From Litchfieldia alkalitelluris (GTDB lineage Bacteria; Bacillota; Bacilli; Bacillales; Salisediminibacteriaceae), in the NCBI RefSeq assembly GCF_002153425.1, contig NZ_KZ119600.1, positions 4,671,608 to 4,735,607 of the forward strand: a stretch of DNA of 64,000 nucleotides. Direction: 5' to 3'. This document shows, piece after piece, positions 5,926 through 51,569 of this stretch. The notes under the pieces are model-generated. The model saw only the letters and a program-made list of their open reading frames with translations. It was not told the origin of the DNA and did no database searches. The position numbers and the translations under genes were made by a program. Each line of letters begins with the position of its first letter. Positions within the stretch are counted from its first letter, which is position 1.

Positions 5926-7640
5926 TAGTAACGACAGTTTTGATCCTTCAAAACAAAAAACTGTCGATTAGAACATGGATTATCGGCAGTTTTGATCCTC
6001 GATAACGCAAATCTGTCGATTAGACCATGGATTATCGGCAGTTTTGATCCTCGATAACGGAAAGCTGTCGATTAGACCATGGATTATCGACAGTTTTGAT
6101 TCTCCAAAACAAAAAACTGTCGATTAGAACATGGATTATCGGCAGTTTTGATTCTCCCAAACGAAAATCTGTCGATTACAGCATGGATTATCGGCAGTTT
6201 TGATCCTCGATAACGGAAAGCTGTCGATTAGACCATGGATTATCGGCAGTTTTGATCCTCGATAACGGAAAGCTGTCGATTAGACCATGGATTATCGGCA
6301 GTTTTGATCCTCGATAACGGAAAGCTGTCGATTAGACCATGGATTATCGGCAGTTTTGATCCTCGATAACGGAAAGCTGTCGATTAGACCATGGATTATC
6401 GGCAGTTTTGATCCTCGATAACGGAAAGCTGTCGATTAGACCATGGATTATCGGCAGTTTTGATCCTCGATAACGGAAAGCTGTCGATTAGACCATGGAT
6501 TATCGGCAGTTTTGATCCTCGATAACGGAAAGCTGTCGATTAGACCATGGATTATCGGCAGTTTTGATCCTCGATAACGGAAAGCTGTCGATTAGACCAT
6601 GGATTATCGGCAGTTTTGATCCTCGATAACGGAAAGCTGTCGATTAGACCATGGATTATCGGCAGTTTTGATCCTCGATAACGGAAAGCTGTCGATTAGA
6701 CCATGGATTATCGGCAGTTTTGATCCTCGATAACGGAAAGCTGTCGATTAGACCATGGATTATCGGCAGTTTTGATCCTCGATAACGGAAAGCTGTCGAT
6801 TAGACCATGGATTATCGGCAGTTTTGATCCTCGATAACGGAAAGCTGTCGATTAGACCATGGATTATCGGCAGTTTTGATCCTCGATAACGGAAAGCTGT
6901 CGATTAGACCATGGATTATCGGCAGTTTTGATCCTCGATAACGGAAAGCTGTCGATTAGACCATGGATTATCGGCAGTTTTGATCCTCGATAACGGAAAG
7001 CTGTCGATTAGACCATGGATTATCGGCAGTTTTGATCCTCGATAACGGAAAGCTGTCGATTAGACCATGGATTATCGGCAGTTTTGATCCTCGATAACGG
7101 AAAGCTGTCGATTAGACCATGGATTATCGGCAGTTTTGATCCTCGATAACGGAAAGCTGTCGATTAGACCATGGATTATCGGCAGTTTTGATCCTCGATA
7201 ACGGAAAGCTGTCGATTAGACCATGGATTATCGGCAGTTTTGATCCTCGATAACGGAAAGCTGTCGATTAGACCATGGATTATCGGCAGTTTTGATCCTC
7301 GATAACGGAAAGCTGTCGATTAGACCATGGATTATCGGCAGTTTTGATCCTCGATAACGGAAAGCTGTCGATTAGACCATGGATTATCGGCAGTTTTGAT
7401 CCTCGATAACGGAAAGCTGTCGATTAGACCATGGATTATCGGCAGTTTTGATCCTCGATAACGGAAAGCTGTCGATTAGACCATGGATTATCGGCAGTTT
7501 TGATCCTCCAAAACGAAAATCTGTCGATTACAGCATGGATTATCGGCAGTTTTGATTCTCCAAAACGAAAATCTGTCGATTACAGCATGGATTATCGACA
7601 GTTTTGTTCCTCGATAACGCAAATCTGTCGATTAGACACA
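5926..7640 (+). repeat. 52-bp palindromic tandem array 2 (33 units, 25 identical in a row)
   Basis: Using the GATCCT/GATTCT element as phase mark, units recur exactly every 52 bp from 5942 to 7606, giving 33 units. Units 6 to 30 (phase marks 6202 to 7450) look identical to each other. The four before and three after are variants, with perfect 10-bp arms such as CGACAGTTTT / AAAACTGTCG at 5931. The amplified unit has CGGCAGTTTT / AAAGCTGTCG, which still pairs in RNA through two G-U wobbles. No spacers and no cas genes are present. Confidence 0.97.
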
Positions 7641-24683: not shown

Positions 24684-25515
24684 GAACCCGCTTTATCGAC
24701 CGTTTGCTCTGCTTAAACTTCTAAACTGTCGGTATCAACTCCCTTTATCGACCGTTTGCTCTGCTTAAACTTCTAAACTGTCGGTATGAACCTGCTTTAT
24801 CGACCGTTTGCTTTGATAAAACTTCTAAACGGTCGGTATCAACTCCCTTTATCGACCGTTTGCTCCGCCCAAACTTCTAAACGGTCGGTATGAACCCTCT
24901 TTATCGACTGTTTGCTCTGCTTAAGCTTCTAAACGGTCGGTATGAACCTGCTTTATCGACCGTTTACTTTGATAAAACTTCTAAACGGTCGGTATGAATC
25001 TGCTTTATCGACCGTTTGCTTTGACAAAACTTCTAAACTGTCGGTATAAACCCCCTTTATCGACCGTTTGATCTGATAAAACTTCTAATCTGCCGGTATG
25101 AACCTGCTTTATCGACCGTTTGCTCCGCCCAAACTTAAAAACGGTCGGTATGATCCCACTTTATCGACCGTTTGCTCTGCTTAAACTTCTAAACTGTCGG
25201 TATGAACCCACTTTATCGACTGTTTTATCCGCTCAAAATTAAAAATAGTCGGTATGAACCCACTTTATCGACCGTTTTCTCTGACAAAACTTCTAAACTG
25301 TCGGTATGAACTCGCTTTATCGACTGTTTTCTCTGCCCAAAATTAAAAACGGTCGGTATCAACCCCCTTTATCGACCGTTTACTTTGACAAAACTTCTAA
25401 ACGGTCAGTATCAACTCCCTTTATCGACCGTTTGCTTTGACAAAACTCCTAAACTGTCGGTATGAACCCTCTTTATCGACCGTTTTCTCCGCCCAAACTT
25501 AAAAACAGTCGTTAT
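24684..25515 (+). repeat. 52-bp palindromic tandem array 3 (about 16 units)
   Basis: CTTTATCGAC recurs every 52 bp from 24691 onward. Units have CGACCGTTT (or CGACTGTTT) and AAACTGTCGG / AAACGGTCGG arms around an AT-rich loop; several are perfect inverted repeats (CGACCGTTT with AAACGGTCG). Units are heterogeneous, unlike array 2. The UAUCGAC/GUCGGUA extension pairs through one G-U. Located between the ahpCF terminator and rluF; the remaining 25516-25734 stretch shows no gene. Confidence 0.93.
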
Positions 25516-32188: not shown

Positions 32189-32236
32189 ATGTAATCTGTG
32201 TTAAATAGCAAAGTTGTAAATGGGTTGGTATTGGTG

Positions 32237-32955
32237 GCTCTTATCGACAGATTGCTGTGTTCTAGCTTCAAATCTGTCGGTATTGCTGGCTCTTATCGAC
32301 AGATTTGCGTTTTCTAGCTTCAATTCTGTCGGTATTGGTGGCTCTTATCGACAGATTTACGTGTTCTAGCTTCAAATCTGTCGGTATTCCTCTTCCTTAT
32401 CGACAGATTTGCGTGTTCTAGCTTCAAATCTGTCGGTATTCCTGGCTCTTATCGACAGATTTGCGTCTCCAAACTTCAAATCTGTCGGTATTCCTGGCTC
32501 TTTTCGACAGATTTGCGTCTCCAAACTTCAAATCTGTCGGTATTCCTCTTCCTTATCGACAGATTTGCGTCTCCAAACTTCGAATCTGTCGGTATTACTG
32601 GCTCTTTTCGACAGATTTGCGTTTTCTAGCTTCAAATCTGTCGGTATTCCTTGTTCTTATTGACAGTTTTCCATTTTCAAGCTTCAAATCTACCGGTATT
32701 CCTTGTTCTTATTGACAGTTTTCCGTTTTCTAGCTTCGAATTTGTCGGTATTGCTGGCTCTTATTGACAGATTTGCGTTTTCAAACTTCAAATCTGTCGG
32801 TATCCATTGCTCTTATCGGCAGATTTGCGTGTTCGAGCTTCAAATCTGTCGGTATACAAACCTCTTATCGACAGATTTACGTGTTCTAGCTTCAAATCTG
32901 TCGGTATTCATACCTCTTATCGATAAATTTCCGCCTTCAAGCATCTATCATTAAC
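32237..32955 (+). repeat. 52-bp palindromic tandem array 4 (14 units)
   Basis: TTATCGACAG recurs at exact 52-bp steps from 32241 to 32917. Typical units have perfect 11-bp arms CGACAGATTTG / CAAATCTGTCG, extended outward by UAU/GUA with one G-U. Linker (GTATTGCTGGCTC, GTATTCCTCTTCC and others) and loop vary between units. The rest of the interval to nagB (32956-33264) contains only the hairpin listed separately. Confidence 0.95.
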
Positions 32956-44895: not shown

Positions 44896-45804
44896 ATGTT
44901 ATTGAAAGAAAGAACTGAATCAGATGAATTGCTCATCATGCGTTACTTAAATAGGCGAATGAAGCTTGATGAGAAGGAAAAGTTTCGCTATATGAATCTT
45001 GAAAAAGGCTATGAAGGTGAGGTGAAATTTGATGAACTACTGGAAAATCTTCAAGAAGAAAGGTTTGTTATTAATGATTTGCTACTAGAGTTAAACAACT
45101 CCTATTTTCAAATTGATACATTGATTATTTCACAAGGAATCATTCACCTAATTGATATTAAGAATTTTGAAGGTGATTGTTACTTGGAATCGGACAAGCT
45201 TTTCTCCGTAAAAACCGGCTGGGAATATAAAAATCCCATAAATCAGTTAAAAAGAAGTGAAACACTCTTCTCTCAATTGCTAAAAAAACTAAAATATACT
45301 TATCTCATTAAATCCTCCGTTGTCTTCATCAATCCCGAATTCACCTTATACCAAGCTTCAATGGACCAACCTATAATACTTCCATCTCAAGTCAATCGCT
45401 TTATTAAAGAATTAAATAACACACCTTCCAAACTAAATTATAGTGACAAAGAACTCGCACAAAAATTAATCTCGTTACACCAGCCAAAGAATCCTTTCCA
45501 CCGTCTACCTAACTTTAGTTATGAGCAACTTCAAAAGGGTGTTTATTGTAATCATTGTTTTTCCTTTCTTATGTTAATTAAAAATCATAGTTTTGTATGT
45601 AAAAACTGCGGTAATCATGAAAAAATAAAAAAGGTAATTTTGCGTCACACAAAGGAATATCAGCTGCTGTTTCCAGATCGTAAAATTACAACAAACAATA
45701 TATTTGAATGGTGTAATGTAGAGTTAAACCAATCGACTGTTTATAGGGTATTAAAAGAGAACTATACTGCTTTTGGAAAGAAAAAAAATACGTATTATGA
45801 ATAA
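44896..45804 (+). CDS. NERD-domain protein with C-terminal zinc ribbon
   Basis: 302 aa. The nuclease-related domain lies at about residues 37-150 (YEGEVKFDELLENL, then FQIDTLIISQGIIHLIDIKNFEG, with the D-x(n)-D-x-K-like pattern DIKNFEG). Near residue 215 there are two Cys pairs (YCNHCFSF and VCKNCGNH) that would form a zinc ribbon, then a helical tail. NERD proteins are predicted nucleases; this one may bind DNA or RNA. AAAGGGAG ahead of ATG. Neighbouring restriction-modification genes make a DNA-related role plausible. Confidence 0.85.
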   Translation: MLLKERTESDELLIMRYLNRRMKLDEKEKFRYMNLEKGYEGEVKFDELLENLQEERFVINDLLLELNNSYFQIDTLIISQGIIHLIDIKNFEGDCYLESDKLFSVKTGWEYKNPINQLKRSETLFSQLLKKLKYTYLIKSSVVFINPEFTLYQASMDQPIILPSQVNRFIKELNNTPSKLNYSDKELAQKLISLHQPKNPFHRLPNFSYEQLQKGVYCNHCFSFLMLIKNHSFVCKNCGNHEKIKKVILRHTKEYQLLFPDRKITTNNIFEWCNVELNQSTVYRVLKENYTAFGKKKNTYYE

Positions 45805-45948: not shown

Positions 45949-45993
45949 AGACAGTTTTCAGTTTAGCTTGCTGAAAACTGTCTTTATTTTTTT
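45949..45993 (+). terminator. Intrinsic terminator of the NERD gene, related to array units
   Basis: Perfect 13-bp stem AGACAGTTTTCAG / CTGAAAACTGTCT, 9-nt loop, then TTATTTTTTT. The stem carries the same GACAGTTTT / AAAACTGTC motif as the 52-bp units that start immediately after it. Confidence 0.92.
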
Positions 45994-46738
45994 GCTCTTA
46001 TCGACAGTTTTTCGTCTTCTTGCTTCAAATCTGTCGGTATCCTCTGCTCTTATCGACAGTTTTTCATTTCCTTGCTTCAAATCTGCCGGTATTCTTTGCT
46101 CTTATCGACAGTTTTTCAGTTCCTAGCTTCAATTCTGTCGGTATTCTTTGCTCTTATCGACAGATTTCTGATTTCAAACTTCAAATCTGTCGGTATTCAT
46201 ACCTCTTATCGACAGATTTCTGATTTCAAACTTCAAATCTGTCGGTATTCATACCTCTTATCGACAGTTTTGCATTTTCAAACTTCAAATCTGACGGTAT
46301 CCTCTCCTCTTATCGACAGTTTTTCGTTTTCAAACTTCAAATCTGTCGGTATTCTCTGCTCTTATCGACAGATTTCTGATTTCAAACTTCAAATCTGTCG
46401 GTATTCTCTGCTCTTATCGACAGATTTCTGATTTCAAACTTCAAATCTGTCGGTATTCTTTGCTCTTATCGACAGATTTCTGATTTCAAACTTCAAATCT
46501 GTCGGTATTCATACCTCTTATCGACAGTTTTGCATTTTCAAACTTCAAATCTGACGGTATCCTCTCCTCTTATCGACAGTTTTTCGTTTTCAAACTTCAA
46601 ATCTGTCGGTATTCTCTGCTCTTATCGACAGATTTCTGATTTCAAACTTCAAATCTGTCGGTATTCATACCTCTTATCGACAGTTTTGCATTTTCAAACT
46701 TCAAATCTGCCGGTATTCATACCTCTGATTTACACATT
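45994..46738 (+). repeat. 52-bp palindromic tandem array 5 (14 units)
   Basis: TTATCGACAG recurs every 52 bp from 45998 to 46674. Arms are CGACAGATTT / AAATCTGTCG or CGACAGTTTT with AAATCTGTCG. Blocks of several units are repeated as a set: the sequence from about 46200 to 46400 recurs from about 46510 to 46690, showing segmental duplication within the array. Lies between the convergent NERD and restriction genes. Confidence 0.95.
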
Positions 46739-46754
46739 TATACAATAAAGTAAA

Positions 46755-46785
46755 AGGGTTCCTCATTTTATTATGAGGAACCCAA
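46755..46785 (-). terminator. Terminator of the FokI-like gene
   Basis: GGGTTCCTCAT / ATGAGGAACCC perfect 11-bp stem with a 6-nt loop; on the minus strand it is followed by TTTTAC. About 90 bp after the nuclease stop. The stretch 46786-46872 is pyrimidine-rich on the plus strand and holds nothing else. Confidence 0.8.
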
Positions 46786-46872: not shown

Positions 46873-48630
46873 TCAAAAAACTATTTCATCATTATTGAAT
46901 TTAGCAGCAACATCTTCTAATGTTATACTGCCGTCTTTAATTTTTTCTCCACCCAACAACAATTGCTCCACGCTCAAGACTGCGCCTTTACGCTTAGTTA
47001 GGTTACTTACACGTGTCAATTGCTTTTTGGTGTCACCCTTAAAATAGCCACTTACGAATAAAAACTTAAAGTCCGAAATAGAACTAGGATAAACCTTCCA
47101 CCATTCGTTAGGGTTTATGATAGCATCACGCTTATTGTTTTCATCTACATATCGTTGCATCTCATCTGCCTGGGAGATTGGTAAACTATAACCGTCTTTG
47201 TAAGCCTTCGTATCTAATATTATTCCATGATCTGCTCCTAAACCTTTCGTATAGAGAGCACCATCTGGTTTACGACTCCCCCCAAGGTGCTTTCCATGAT
47301 AGCCATACACTTCTTTAAAAAACTCGACTACCTTAAATTCCAGCAAACGATTTTGCTTGGAATCCTGTGCAATCTCTATTAACTCAATATATTCATGTGG
47401 CACATGTTTTAGCTTATGACGTAATTCGGCTTTCTTTTTCTCCATCTCACCTTTAACTAATCGTTCAGTCACGCCAAATTCAGGGATTTCAAATGGATGA
47501 ATAGTATCTTGGAGTTGAAAACCTTTCTTCGTCAAACTAATAAAAATACCAGAATTAATGAATCCTTTAACATCGTTCTCAATTGTTTCTTCCAACTCTT
47601 CAAAACCTAGTTCCTTTAATTTGCTTTGCATTTGAGCAGCTGTTATTGCTGAAGAACTTTTCATTAACAATGATAGTGTGTATGCACGCCTTGTCCTTAC
47701 GTAGACTCTATCATTAATGTTGGTAGCTAACATTTCCCAGTGTACACGCTTTGGTACTCGTACATGTTTACTTTTACCTTTTGCTCTCCTTAATACATCA
47801 AGACCTTCTTTTGTAATTTTAAACGCATGAGAGATATGCTCTTTTCTTGCAGAGCCTCCCACAGTTGAAACATCAAAGCTTTTGCGAGCTTGTGAAACGA
47901 GCCCCATCTTAGCTAGCCAGCCGGCAATCATTCGCGCATATTTATCTGCAGAACCTTCCCAGTCAGCACGAATTGAGTTTTTAGCTGAAGGTGGTGATGA
48001 AGGTGCATTGGCTAATGCATCTAAAAACAAGTTCTGTGGTAATGAAGTGAAACCACTTTCTCCACTAAAACCTAATTGCTTACCTAAATCAAATTTAGTT
48101 AAATGCTCGCCGTTTTCAAGCAATGTCAAAATTCGGATTGCAGGTGGATATGATGACAACGCATCAACAAGAATCCTTTTTTCAGTCTCTGAATCATCCT
48201 CAGACTGAGAATATTCCAAACCTATATCTGTAAGAGTGAATGAATCTGATGCCGAATCATATTCAAGAAAACCTAATGCATGTGCCCAGCGAACAAAACC
48301 ATCTGAAGACCAGTTATCAATATACCCTTTTTTATTCCCTTGGTCTTGAATTGCTGCTTGAATAATAGCATCACAAGGTGCGTTAGCTCGGACAGATGTA
48401 CCAGTACCAACTAACTCTTTATAGGAGTATTTCAATTCTGATCGGTTCATAGCACTAGATAAAGTATGAAGTACTTCTTTGTTTTTCACTAGATTAGGAA
48501 TTTTTATATCCTTAACCTCTTTATATACGTTTGCGTTTTTATCGAAAACTTGGACGGTACGTTTTAAATTCTCAAATTTTCCAGGATTCTGTATCCAACC
48601 AAATGTACGAATCACTCGTCTTGCCGCCAT
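46873..48630 (-). CDS. FokI-like type IIS restriction endonuclease
   Basis: 585 aa from ATG 48630 (GAGGTG upstream; FokI about 583). Recognition part: RTFGWIQNPGKFENLKR, YKELVGTGTSVRANAPCDAI, DNWSSDGFVRWAHALGF and NLFLDALANA, all strongly FokI-like. Cleavage domain: KHLGGSRKPDGALYTKG with the PD-(D/E)XK residues Asp, then Asp-Thr-Lys 17 residues later (FokI D450, D467, K469), and QADEMQRYVDEN carrying the FokI dimer-interface Asp and Arg (D483, R487) at the same relative positions. FokI cuts GGATG 9/13 nt away; conservation of the recognition domain makes GGATG likely here. The isoschizomer StsI (10/14) cannot be excluded. Downstream of its methyltransferase, as in the FokI system. Confidence 0.95.
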   Translation of the reverse strand: MAARRVIRTFGWIQNPGKFENLKRTVQVFDKNANVYKEVKDIKIPNLVKNKEVLHTLSSAMNRSELKYSYKELVGTGTSVRANAPCDAIIQAAIQDQGNKKGYIDNWSSDGFVRWAHALGFLEYDSASDSFTLTDIGLEYSQSEDDSETEKRILVDALSSYPPAIRILTLLENGEHLTKFDLGKQLGFSGESGFTSLPQNLFLDALANAPSSPPSAKNSIRADWEGSADKYARMIAGWLAKMGLVSQARKSFDVSTVGGSARKEHISHAFKITKEGLDVLRRAKGKSKHVRVPKRVHWEMLATNINDRVYVRTRRAYTLSLLMKSSSAITAAQMQSKLKELGFEELEETIENDVKGFINSGIFISLTKKGFQLQDTIHPFEIPEFGVTERLVKGEMEKKKAELRHKLKHVPHEYIELIEIAQDSKQNRLLEFKVVEFFKEVYGYHGKHLGGSRKPDGALYTKGLGADHGIILDTKAYKDGYSLPISQADEMQRYVDENNKRDAIINPNEWWKVYPSSISDFKFLFVSGYFKGDTKKQLTRVSNLTKRKGAVLSVEQLLLGGEKIKDGSITLEDVAAKFNNDEIVF

Positions 48631-48805
48631 ATAAATCACCTCTTCTTTATCAGGCTACCCTGAGTATAGATTTTGTTGTTTACTCCAACAAATAGAACTA
48701 ATAAAGTAATTTCATGCCCTATGGTGCCGATTAAATAAGCATGGAAGGACCTGTTATTTTTTAAATATTAACACATCATGTTTGAAAAAATCCGACTGAC
48801 TTAGG

Positions 48806-50896
48806 TCAATCGGAATAGTTCGTAATAAGGACTTCTTCACTTTCTCCTCGAGTCGTATTATGACTAGAGTTAGCATAATCATAATTTAGATAGTTGATAT
48901 GGTATTTTTTCGCCCATTCCAATAAAATGTGGTTTGTTTGTCCCTTGTGTTTCAGCACATTTGATAAGGCAAACCGGACTCCATTACCGTTTAAATCATC
49001 TAGTATTTGTAAAAGCTTGTACTCTTGGTCTTCATTCCAATCTTTAAAACCTCGATTGCCATCGTTATATGAGCCCGTTGTAATTAAGTAAGGGGGGTCA
49101 CAATATACGAAGTCACCTTTACTTAAATGATTATAATGAAATAAATCAAACTCTTCTGTTGAGAATTCAATGTTTTTACTATGAAGTGCTTCAATAAACC
49201 TTACTAATTTTAACTCGAGAGCTGGGGAAAACTGACTACGATTCCGCCCAAATGGGTTGTTATATTCTTGATTATTATTAAATCTAAATTGGTAATTAAA
49301 TGAGTAGCAAATTAAAGTATATAAGTCTAAAGGGTGCTTCGTTTGATTATAGTAATCTCGAAACTTCTTAAATCCTTCTTCATTTTCTTTTGAGAGATTG
49401 TACTCCTGTATCCTTTTGTGGATATGCTCTAAAACCTCATCAACGCGAAGACTTGCCATTTCTTTCAGGACACCAATTACAAAAGTATTAATATCATTTG
49501 CGATAATGCTATTTGCTTTTACATTAATGCCAACATTTAGGCCGCCTGCAAATAGGTCAACGAAAGTGTTTATATCCTCAGGAAATAAAGGGATTATTTG
49601 CTTTAAAAGCTTGTACTTCCCTCCAATATAATTTAGAGGACTTTTAATATATTCCTGTGCAGGGTATTTAGCTACCCTAACTGGAGGTCTCGGCAATGTT
49701 GCAACATTAGTAGTTGCTGAACCCGCGTCCACTTTAATTCCATTCATGCTAAATAGATCTAACTCTGTGTAGGATAATTCCGTCTGCTCAGAATGAATTT
49801 CCTCATTAGTATTGGCAGCACCTTCATTTTGATAAGCAGTTTCAAAAGCTCTATTACTTCTTACTAAAGGAATATCTTTCTGAATATAGAAAAGTAATTC
49901 ATTAAGGTTTGATTCCTCTTGTTTATGTTTACTCTTGTACTTTCGATATGGTATTTTGGCTAATTTATAGGTATCAGCTACACCGTGTTTCTTTAGTACT
50001 TGTTCGATGTCATCAACTGACATAAGGCCTTCCGTACTATAACTTACAATGATATGGCGAAATTTAGCTTTTTCAATAAGATCACTAAATACACCTAAGA
50101 CGTCTCTTTTTGAGCAGTATGCTGACTTGGCGTGTTCGTATGGTCGCAACCCTGTTTTTCCATAAATCTCTGGGTAATCATACCGCGCTATCGTTTCAAG
50201 TAAATGGTAATTAGAGATATATTGTCTGCTATTATATGGCGTATCAATATAAAGGACATCACCACGTACTCGCTCTATCACATCATTTGCATCTTCATTA
50301 AAACTTTTATTTGTGTAATAATTATCAGTCACTTCTAGTCGCTGTAGCTTTAGGTTACTTAAGGCTCTTTTATCCCAGTGCTTCAAGTAAGCTCCATAAG
50401 TCCCAGAAATGTTCGAGATAAATGGTATTGCTTCAATAAGTGTTGCTAAAATGTAAGCAAACTCTTTCTCATTGATTAAATTACTTTCTTTCCAACTATT
50501 AATTTGCTGACGAATGAAATCAATTCTACTAGCGTTTTCTACAGAAAAATACATTCGTTCACAACCATTATATGGTGAATAATGATGTGTAATAAAATAA
50601 TCTGGTTTAATCGTAATCTCTGCTGTTTCTAAATATTCTAGTGGGTCTGATATCCCATTCTGCTTTAGTTTTGAAAACTTAGGGATTTGGTTATTTTCAA
50701 TACGGGCTTTTTGTAGAATATAAGAGAAATATAAACTATCATTAGAATATATACAGTAGTCTTTTTTAAAATATTCCGCTACAGTACCTGTTCCAGAAAA
50801 CATGTCCATAAATACAGTAGGTGAATCCGTAATGTTTTCACTAATAAAGCTTTCTATGTTTGATAATAAATTTACCTTACTACCTATAAATCTCAT
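48806..50896 (-). CDS. FokI-type fused double adenine-N6 DNA methyltransferase
   Basis: 696 aa with two complete D12-class methyltransferase domains, one per strand of an asymmetric site. Domain 1: RFIGSKVNLL (motif X), MDMFSGTGTVA (motif I, residues 30-40), VLYIDTPYNSRQY (motif IV DTPY, 218-221). Domain 2: LNYIGGKYKLLKQI, FVDLFAGGLNVG (motif I, about 446-455), FVYCDPPYLIT (DPPY, 600-603). M.FokI (647 aa) has the same DTPY/DPPY layout; the extra length is mostly in the linker (about residues 345-415). Transcribed ahead of the nuclease gene. Two GGATG sites lie at its ribosome binding site. Confidence 0.94.
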   Translation of the reverse strand: MRFIGSKVNLLSNIESFISENITDSPTVFMDMFSGTGTVAEYFKKDYCIYSNDSLYFSYILQKARIENNQIPKFSKLKQNGISDPLEYLETAEITIKPDYFITHHYSPYNGCERMYFSVENASRIDFIRQQINSWKESNLINEKEFAYILATLIEAIPFISNISGTYGAYLKHWDKRALSNLKLQRLEVTDNYYTNKSFNEDANDVIERVRGDVLYIDTPYNSRQYISNYHLLETIARYDYPEIYGKTGLRPYEHAKSAYCSKRDVLGVFSDLIEKAKFRHIIVSYSTEGLMSVDDIEQVLKKHGVADTYKLAKIPYRKYKSKHKQEESNLNELLFYIQKDIPLVRSNRAFETAYQNEGAANTNEEIHSEQTELSYTELDLFSMNGIKVDAGSATTNVATLPRPPVRVAKYPAQEYIKSPLNYIGGKYKLLKQIIPLFPEDINTFVDLFAGGLNVGINVKANSIIANDINTFVIGVLKEMASLRVDEVLEHIHKRIQEYNLSKENEEGFKKFRDYYNQTKHPLDLYTLICYSFNYQFRFNNNQEYNNPFGRNRSQFSPALELKLVRFIEALHSKNIEFSTEEFDLFHYNHLSKGDFVYCDPPYLITTGSYNDGNRGFKDWNEDQEYKLLQILDDLNGNGVRFALSNVLKHKGQTNHILLEWAKKYHINYLNYDYANSSHNTTRGESEEVLITNYSD

Positions 50897-51026: not shown

Positions 51027-51569
51027 TTGCGAATACAGCAAGTATATCAATTAACTGAGGATTTAATAGAAGAAGCTAGACAGTACGCGGAATTATCTAA
51101 GGAGTTTACTTCGAACCGCCATGATTTTCATGAAGGCGGGTTAATTAATAAAAAGAAGAAAATGTACGAAGGTAAACTAGGAGAAAAGATATTTAAAATG
51201 TTTTTGTTGGAAAACAAAATAAACTTTGAAGAGGATAAAAGTAGTCATGAAGAAGCTGATTATTATGATTTCCTCTTACCTAATGGCTATAAAATTGATG
51301 TAAAAACACGTACTAAAGATTTTCATATACGTACATTAGAGTTAGTAGAACAATTTCAACAAAAACCTAAGGAAATATATGTATCAGTAAGACTATTTGA
51401 TAATTTGAGTACCGGCAGTATTATTGGCTGGGTCTCAAACAATGATATTCTTAGGATAAACAGGATAGAGAACCATGGTTATTTAGATAACTATACTATT
51501 TATGATAGAGAGCTTAGAGATATGAAGCAACTTTGGGACTTATGTCTAGTAAACTATAAAAGCAATTGA
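51027..51569 (+). CDS. Stand-alone PD-(D/E)XK nuclease-like protein
   Basis: 180 aa, TTG start after AAAGGGGGG. An N-terminal helical region is followed by EGKLGEKIFKMFLLENKI (Glu near 49/53), then YYDFLLPNGYKIDVKTRTK, giving Asp81 and Asp91-x-Lys93: the spacing and beta-strand context of the PD-(D/E)XK active site. The C-terminal part (EIYVSVRLF, then IIGWVSNNDIL) completes a compact nuclease-like fold. It faces the FokI-type methyltransferase gene. It may be a phage-type or accessory restriction nuclease. I do not recognise a named family. Confidence 0.65.
   Translation: MRIQQVYQLTEDLIEEARQYAELSKEFTSNRHDFHEGGLINKKKKMYEGKLGEKIFKMFLLENKINFEEDKSSHEEADYYDFLLPNGYKIDVKTRTKDFHIRTLELVEQFQQKPKEIYVSVRLFDNLSTGSIIGWVSNNDILRINRIENHGYLDNYTIYDRELRDMKQLWDLCLVNYKSN

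Follow-up and report, generated by a model that had tools for sequence, protein, structure and literature searches.

FokI is a Type IIS restriction endonuclease whose cleavage domain is the basis of zinc-finger nucleases and of transcription activator-like effector nucleases (TALENs). As a reference for its restriction-modification (R-M) system we will use the locus of Planomicrobium okeanokoites IFO 12536 (L010, NZ_QQRS01000010.1), which encodes the FokI protein itself. Another described system is R.BspD6I, which consists of a FokI-like large subunit, a nickase, and a small catalytic subunit; the gene of this second, small nuclease lies downstream of that of the large one (PMC8533099, PMC6261011). 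The small subunit is deposited in the PDB as 2p14 (PMC6261011).

Here we describe a related locus of Litchfieldia alkalitelluris (assembly GCF_002153425.1). It is found in a window of 64,000 nucleotides, positions 4,671,608 to 4,735,607 of the forward strand of contig NZ_KZ119600.1; coordinates are given in this window unless another locus is named. The locus contains a FokI-type endonuclease (R) and a fused double adenine methyltransferase (M), which very probably form a Type IIS R-M system isospecific with FokI: the two are homologous to those of FokI, their frames are intact, the catalytic and dimer residues are kept and exactly GGATG is avoided in a sample of the host genome. As a FokI-type pair for GGATG, R and M belong to a known kind of system. 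The new elements are the specificity read from the host genome and a companion nuclease, N180, which lies outside the span covered by a preliminary description made from the letters of this DNA.

The endonuclease and the methyltransferase

R lies at 46873..48630 on the minus strand. The frame is open over 46873-48639, as far back as a GTG at 48639; the ATG at 48630 is preceded by a good ribosome site (gaagaggtga) and gives a protein of 585 amino acids (aa). Compared by phmmer with FokI (1fok) it aligns from end to end, query 10-588 against 2-576, with E 6e-264 and an identity of 67-68% over the whole length. The four Pfam domains FokI_D1, FokI_dom_2, FokI_D3 and FokI_cleav_dom are each found over their curated cut-off. 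There are two insertions, of three residues in D2 and of one residue in D3, and the linker ahead of the cleavage domain has no gap with respect to FokI, so that cleavage at 9/13 is likely. A terminator-like hairpin is found 3' of the gene (46756..46783, minus strand).

The catalytic residues of R are D456, D473 and K475, with the two Asp 17 residues apart in a D-17-D-x-K site, and the segment QADEMQR is present. We take the FokI equivalents to be D450, D467 and K469, and D483 and R487 to be the dimer residues of FokI. Sixty-one R proteins of full length, that of the host included, were aligned. The catalytic D, D and K are invariant in them; D483 is conserved in 60, as is R487, and the host has both. 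The rows come from 55 of the 62 genome loci described below, four plasmid loci, the viral contig L096 and the host. The short sequences L007, L053, L055, L058, L063, L064, L067 and L068 and the copies L001 and L002 were left out; in L053, L055, L058, L063, L064 and L067 the match is fragmented. We take eleven positions to form the dimer face; four of them are substituted in R, with Asp for E490, Asp for N496, Asn for H537 and Leu for I538. A natural isospecific enzyme with such an altered dimer face is of practical use, since zinc-finger nucleases and TALENs are built on this domain.

The base contacts in the published DNA complex of FokI are presumably Q12, N13, R79, W105, N217, E220, K225 and R228. 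Seven of these eight are kept in R, all except N217, to which we will return. Position 13 divides the 61 proteins into 29 with Asn, among them the host, and 32 with Asp; from this division there may be a second specificity within the wider FokI-type family.

M has 696 aa, is encoded at 48806..50896 on the minus strand and is a D12-class adenine methyltransferase of the M.FokI type. It sits upstream of R in the same direction, with a gap of 175 base pairs (bp), and contains two MethyltransfD12 stretches (Pfam). The N-terminal domain covers residues 1-345 (49862..50896, minus strand) and has DTPY as motif IV. The C-terminal, Dam-like domain (48809..49666, minus strand) has DPPY, the same as M.FokI. 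Identity with M of the FokI strain is 64% overall, 69% in the N half and 73% in the C half. A terminator-like hairpin overlaps the stop codon of M (48791..48814, minus strand), so that M and R may be transcribed separately; promoter patterns show no excess, with 18 found and 19.1 in shuffles.

The preliminary description had noted a 585-aa nuclease 3' of a co-directional fused methyltransferase, with the Asp, Asp and Lys of FokI, their 17-residue spacing, QADEMQR and both the recognition (D1-D3) and the cleavage domains. All these points are borne out, and the observation of R and M is confirmed as real and not due to chance.

It had also stated that close homologues of FokI are few, which proves to be the case in the collections searched. 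In 84,980 species genomes a pattern scan, confirmed by tblastn, identified 62 FokI-type R loci, and two of them exceed the 67% identity of FokI with the host protein: Peribacillus acanthi (85%) and Bacillus sp. cl95 (78%). The other 59 have at most 53%. According to the record titles the loci span Clostridia, Poribacteria, Pasteurella, Haemophilus, lactobacilli and others. Among 100 genomes of relatives, that of the host included, only P. acanthi also carries R; in the genome grouping used it shares the order of the host and belongs to a different family, the one fact which bears on the Bacillaceae named in the preliminary description. In plasmids 13 records match R, all below 60%, and in a collection of phage records no match was found. 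Some Staphylococcus plasmids (e.g. L007 1544-2470) have, next to an IS6-family element, a FokI-like frame of about 309 aa which stops short of the cleavage domain.

Avoidance of GGATG in the host genome

The host sample consists of 16 stretches of 20 kilobases (kb) and the 64-kb window, 384 kb in all. The controls are four genomes of the same genus without a detected FokI-type R, each sampled over 320 kb. Under a maximal-order Markov model GGATG/CATCC is found 491 times in the host and 670.7 are expected, a ratio of 0.73 (z -6.9), which makes it the most depleted of the 512 pentamers. When the window is left out and the remaining stretches are divided into two halves, the ratio is 0.71 in one half (rank 2) and 0.76 in the other (rank 6). 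The ratios in the controls are 1.055, 0.967, 1.035 and 1.050. Shuffling of synonymous codons within genes leads to the same value in the host, 0.73 (z -7.7), and to 0.99-1.14 in the controls. A bootstrap over stretches gives 0.68-0.82 for the host and jointly 0.93-1.13 for the four controls, in a count without overlapping words which reads about 0.02 above the main ratios.

We read this depletion as the mark of a putatively active system of exact GGATG specificity, which would be long resident in the host lineage. Recognition of GGATG, proposed in the preliminary description, is thus supported by a word depleted in the host and in none of the four controls. The avoidance of the exact word of an asymmetric Type IIS site means that a specificity could be read here from sequence alone.

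Several observations weigh against this conclusion. The presumed contact N217 is Ala in R, and in the N half of M motif IV reads DTPY, not DPPY as in M.FokI. The codon shuffle places GGATG only 20th of the 512 words in the host, the four lowest being words with CCGG, and when the ratio of host to controls is taken GGATG ranks 6 of 512, behind the four CCGG words and CGCCG. Finally, GGATG is not avoided in P. acanthi, in Bacillus sp. cl95 or in the FokI strain (0.959, 0.982 and 0.966; by codon shuffle 1.23, 1.12 and 1.22).

The change at position 217 raises the possibility that the specificity of R is altered or relaxed, for instance with one base of GGATG degenerate. The position is variable across the family: in the 61 proteins there are 20 Thr, 18 Ser, 15 Ala, 4 Asn and 4 Gln, so that 57 of the 61 have a residue other than Asn. 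Furthermore the 15 single-base variants of GGATG have ratios of 0.90-1.18 in the host sample, none below 0.90, while the exact word is depleted; this argues against a relaxed site, and we consider a changed specificity very improbable. As for motif IV, DTPY is present in the N half of 20 out of 73 loci, DPPY in 52, and one was not read.

The three hosts without avoidance, the FokI strain among them, led us to reject avoidance as a general mark of FokI-type systems. According to PMC4687349, hosts avoid about half of the sites of orthodox Type II systems, also asymmetric sites, and do so more commonly where the system is long resident; both the avoidance in our host and its lack in the other three fit this. 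The same article states that avoidance can occur without a system, as the trace of one which has been lost. The system could accordingly be silent or dead, with the depletion due to base composition or to some different GGATG system, present or lost. However the frames of R, M and N180 are intact and the catalytic residues are kept, the only M.FokI-type match found in the host is its own M, and the codon-shuffle and same-genus controls are free of depletion. We give a silent system very little credence.

The four words which contain CCGG are the most avoided in the host by codon shuffle, with ratios of 0.37-0.46 and of 0.31-0.37 relative to the controls. This suggests the presence, now or in the past, of a CCGG-specific system.

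For the system read as active and specific for GGATG, methylation, cutting and cutting distance can be proposed by analogy with established knowledge of FokI. M would methylate one adenine in each strand of GGATG/CATCC, each half serving one strand. R would bind unmethylated GGATG through D1-D2; its cleavage domain would then be freed and would pair with the cleavage domain of a second R, and DNA would be cut at a fixed distance downstream of GGATG, probably 9/13.

N180, a candidate third gene

N180 is a protein of 180 aa with a predicted PD-(D/E)XK nuclease fold. It is encoded at 51027..51569 on the plus strand, divergent from M, with a TTG start behind aaaggggggt, and it is a candidate third gene of the R-M system. 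The host protein has no match in Pfam, NCBIfam and PADLOC, and only matches with E 0.11 and 0.18 in PHROGs; the homologue in phage Javan105 has a weak PADLOC match to PDC-S01 (E 0.0017, 15 bits). An active-site pattern E..D..D-x-K is apparent, with E53, D78, D81, D91 and K93 invariant in the 17 sequences aligned. The predicted structure has a mean predicted local distance difference test (pLDDT) of 86.5 and a predicted template modelling score (pTM) of 0.84, and its structural matches are with PD-(D/E)XK enzymes. By its predicted fold and active site N180 can be assigned to this nuclease superfamily; within it a specific tie to the homing endonuclease I-Ssp6803I is possible.

Homologues with 67% identity are found in the FokI strain, 1.2 kb past R with one open reading frame (ORF) between them, and in Bacillus sp. 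cl95, 0.3 kb past R. These are the only two of the 62 FokI-type loci with N180 (L010 and L009, respectively); 16 of the 62 are shorter than 9 kb, where a distant copy could be missed. N180 is rare in the cellular genomes searched, which form three overlapping sets. In a set of 199 relatives and in one of 398 genomes from the class, the host's own genome was the only one to have it; in the third set, 398 genomes from the phylum, its own match (285 bits) was joined by two remote ones (55 and 32 bits). The whole genomes of P. acanthi and A. paradoxus gave no match, and neither did the five plasmid FokI-type loci examined. Since the closest relative, P. acanthi, is without it, N180 is an optional companion. 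A remote relative (34% over half the length, 51-52 bits with the profile) is present in Lactiplantibacillus plasmids (L072 and L073 5941-6261), where it adjoins R-M genes of the LlaJI family.

The association extends to viruses. A scan of viral contigs gave 27 loci with N180, many of them copies. Five of these contigs also have a M.FokI-type half; the endonuclease partner is a FokI-type R in L096, and in L080, L085, L086 and L091 it is a different protein, which we call J57. In addition J57 and part of N180 are present in L100, which is truncated by the end of its contig, and the phage record L071 combines the two methyltransferase halves with J57 and N180. In the remaining viral contigs with N180 no M.FokI-type half, FokI-type R or J57 was found. 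A scan with the N half of M gave 65 viral loci: N180 is present in 8 of the 16 with M identity of at least 42% and in none of the 49 with at most 40% (Fisher p 2.5e-6), in a scan biased by 8 of its 10 query rows coming from N180-linked loci, by some contigs first met via N180 and by loci not all independent. Scanning with J57 gave 8 loci, 7 with N180 (5 of the 7 query rows were from N180-linked loci), and scanning with R gave four contigs, one with N180. N180 is a recurrent, though optional, companion.

J57 is a 463-aa Type II endonuclease unrelated to FokI and repeatedly paired with M.FokI-type methyltransferases. It is encoded at L071 6613-8001, with relatives in L080, L085, L086, L091 and L102-L104. 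It is also found with such methyltransferases on Psychrobacter and Bartonella plasmids, where neither annotation nor the N180 profile revealed N180. Remote J57-like proteins (107-225 bits) lie beside more distant D12 methyltransferases, with no N180, in L301-L305, L308, L309, L312 and L313. As a guess, J57 is possibly of the BtsCI/BseGI kind (GGATG); these enzymes recognise GGATGNN, according to PMC6097692.

What N180 does can be proposed only tentatively. Its size and its FokI-like partner gave us the idea of a small subunit of the BspD6I type, a possible relation which found no support: N180 has no match among PDB sequences at E 10 or less, and 2p14 is not among the best 50 listed in two fold comparisons. 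A plain site-specific second endonuclease is not favoured, because phage copies of N180 are on contigs with no detected M.FokI-type methyltransferase. Another explanation is that N180 plays no part in restriction and is either an unrelated hitchhiker or a selfish nuclease of the homing type, which simply sits in phages and defence islands. Its tree is poorly resolved, so that a single clade of the R-M-linked copies is neither rejected nor shown (approximately unbiased test, p-AU 0.415). Against a hitchhiker, the gene overlaps the frame of its partners in some loci: the start of N180 is on the stop of J57 (ATGA) in L071 and L085 and on the stop of M (ATGA) in L091, where J57 begins 11 bases ahead of the end of N180. 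It also recurs with the same type of methyltransferase, together with two unrelated endonucleases and in several gene orders. We hold an unrelated hitchhiker to be a serious possibility, a little short of an even chance.

The explanation which we put forward, with somewhat less than even confidence, is that GGATG-type R-M systems, that of FokI included, have in N180 an overlooked third gene, a second and swappable effector which works with M.FokI-type methyltransferases beside FokI or J57. N180 would most likely be an accessory nuclease of phage origin which travels with GGATG-type systems and acts beside R, not in its place. Among the titles and abstract openings listed in literature searches, with subscription papers mostly outside, no N180-like gene was described in a FokI-type system. 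Should N180 indeed be a functional part, then a restriction system in very wide use has a component which has gone unexamined.

Surroundings and comparison with known systems

A comparison with eight other genomes of the genus in search of an empty site found no orthologous flanks; the matches of the flanking DegV-like gene there are all distant (at most 34%) and those of the left flanking gene all weak. Downstream of R there is a NERD-domain protein (44896-45804), possibly part of the same defence island. The window also contains tandem arrays in which a repeat of 52 (51) bp occurs in as many as 33 copies, in positions 1-209, 208-505, 5935-7637, 24684-25515, 32227-32930 and 45991-46718. The units differ between arrays. 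When five consensus units were folded, four formed a better hairpin than their shuffles (z -2.3 to -5.0) and one did not (z 0.1); the units which form hairpins have CGACAG..CTGTCG-like stems.

The system of the FokI strain is similar in the domains and residues of R (67%), in the fused M (69% and 73% in its halves), in the position of M upstream of R and in a nearby homologue of N180 (67%). It differs in that FokI has 579 aa, six fewer than the host R, and has neither the small insertions in D2 and D3 nor the Ala in place of N217; M.FokI does not have DTPY in its N half. The position of N180 is also different, divergent beside M in our host and downstream of R, with one ORF between, in the FokI strain, and only our host avoids GGATG.

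The system of Peribacillus acanthi L28 (L008) is the closest, with 85% identity in R, 92% in each half of M and the same order, M and then R. However no N180 was found in its genome, a HARE-HTH gene lies downstream of R and GGATG is not avoided. Bacillus sp. cl95 (L009) shares R (78%) and N180 (67%), but its methyltransferase halves are separate genes (L009 10043-12815, 53-56%), and it has in addition a third methyltransferase gene, of the N6/N4 type, which adjoins them.

The J57-type systems, such as those of Streptococcus phage Javan105 and its relatives, have in common with our host the M.FokI-type D12 and Dam-like methyltransferases and N180. Their endonuclease is different: it corresponds to REase_II PDLC03445 of PADLOC and has no match in Pfam, hence no FokI domain, nor in the PDB. 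R.BspD6I resembles our system by having a FokI-like protein and a second small nuclease gene; it differs by a small subunit which is in the PDB, where N180 has no sequence match, and our R keeps the dimer residues of FokI.

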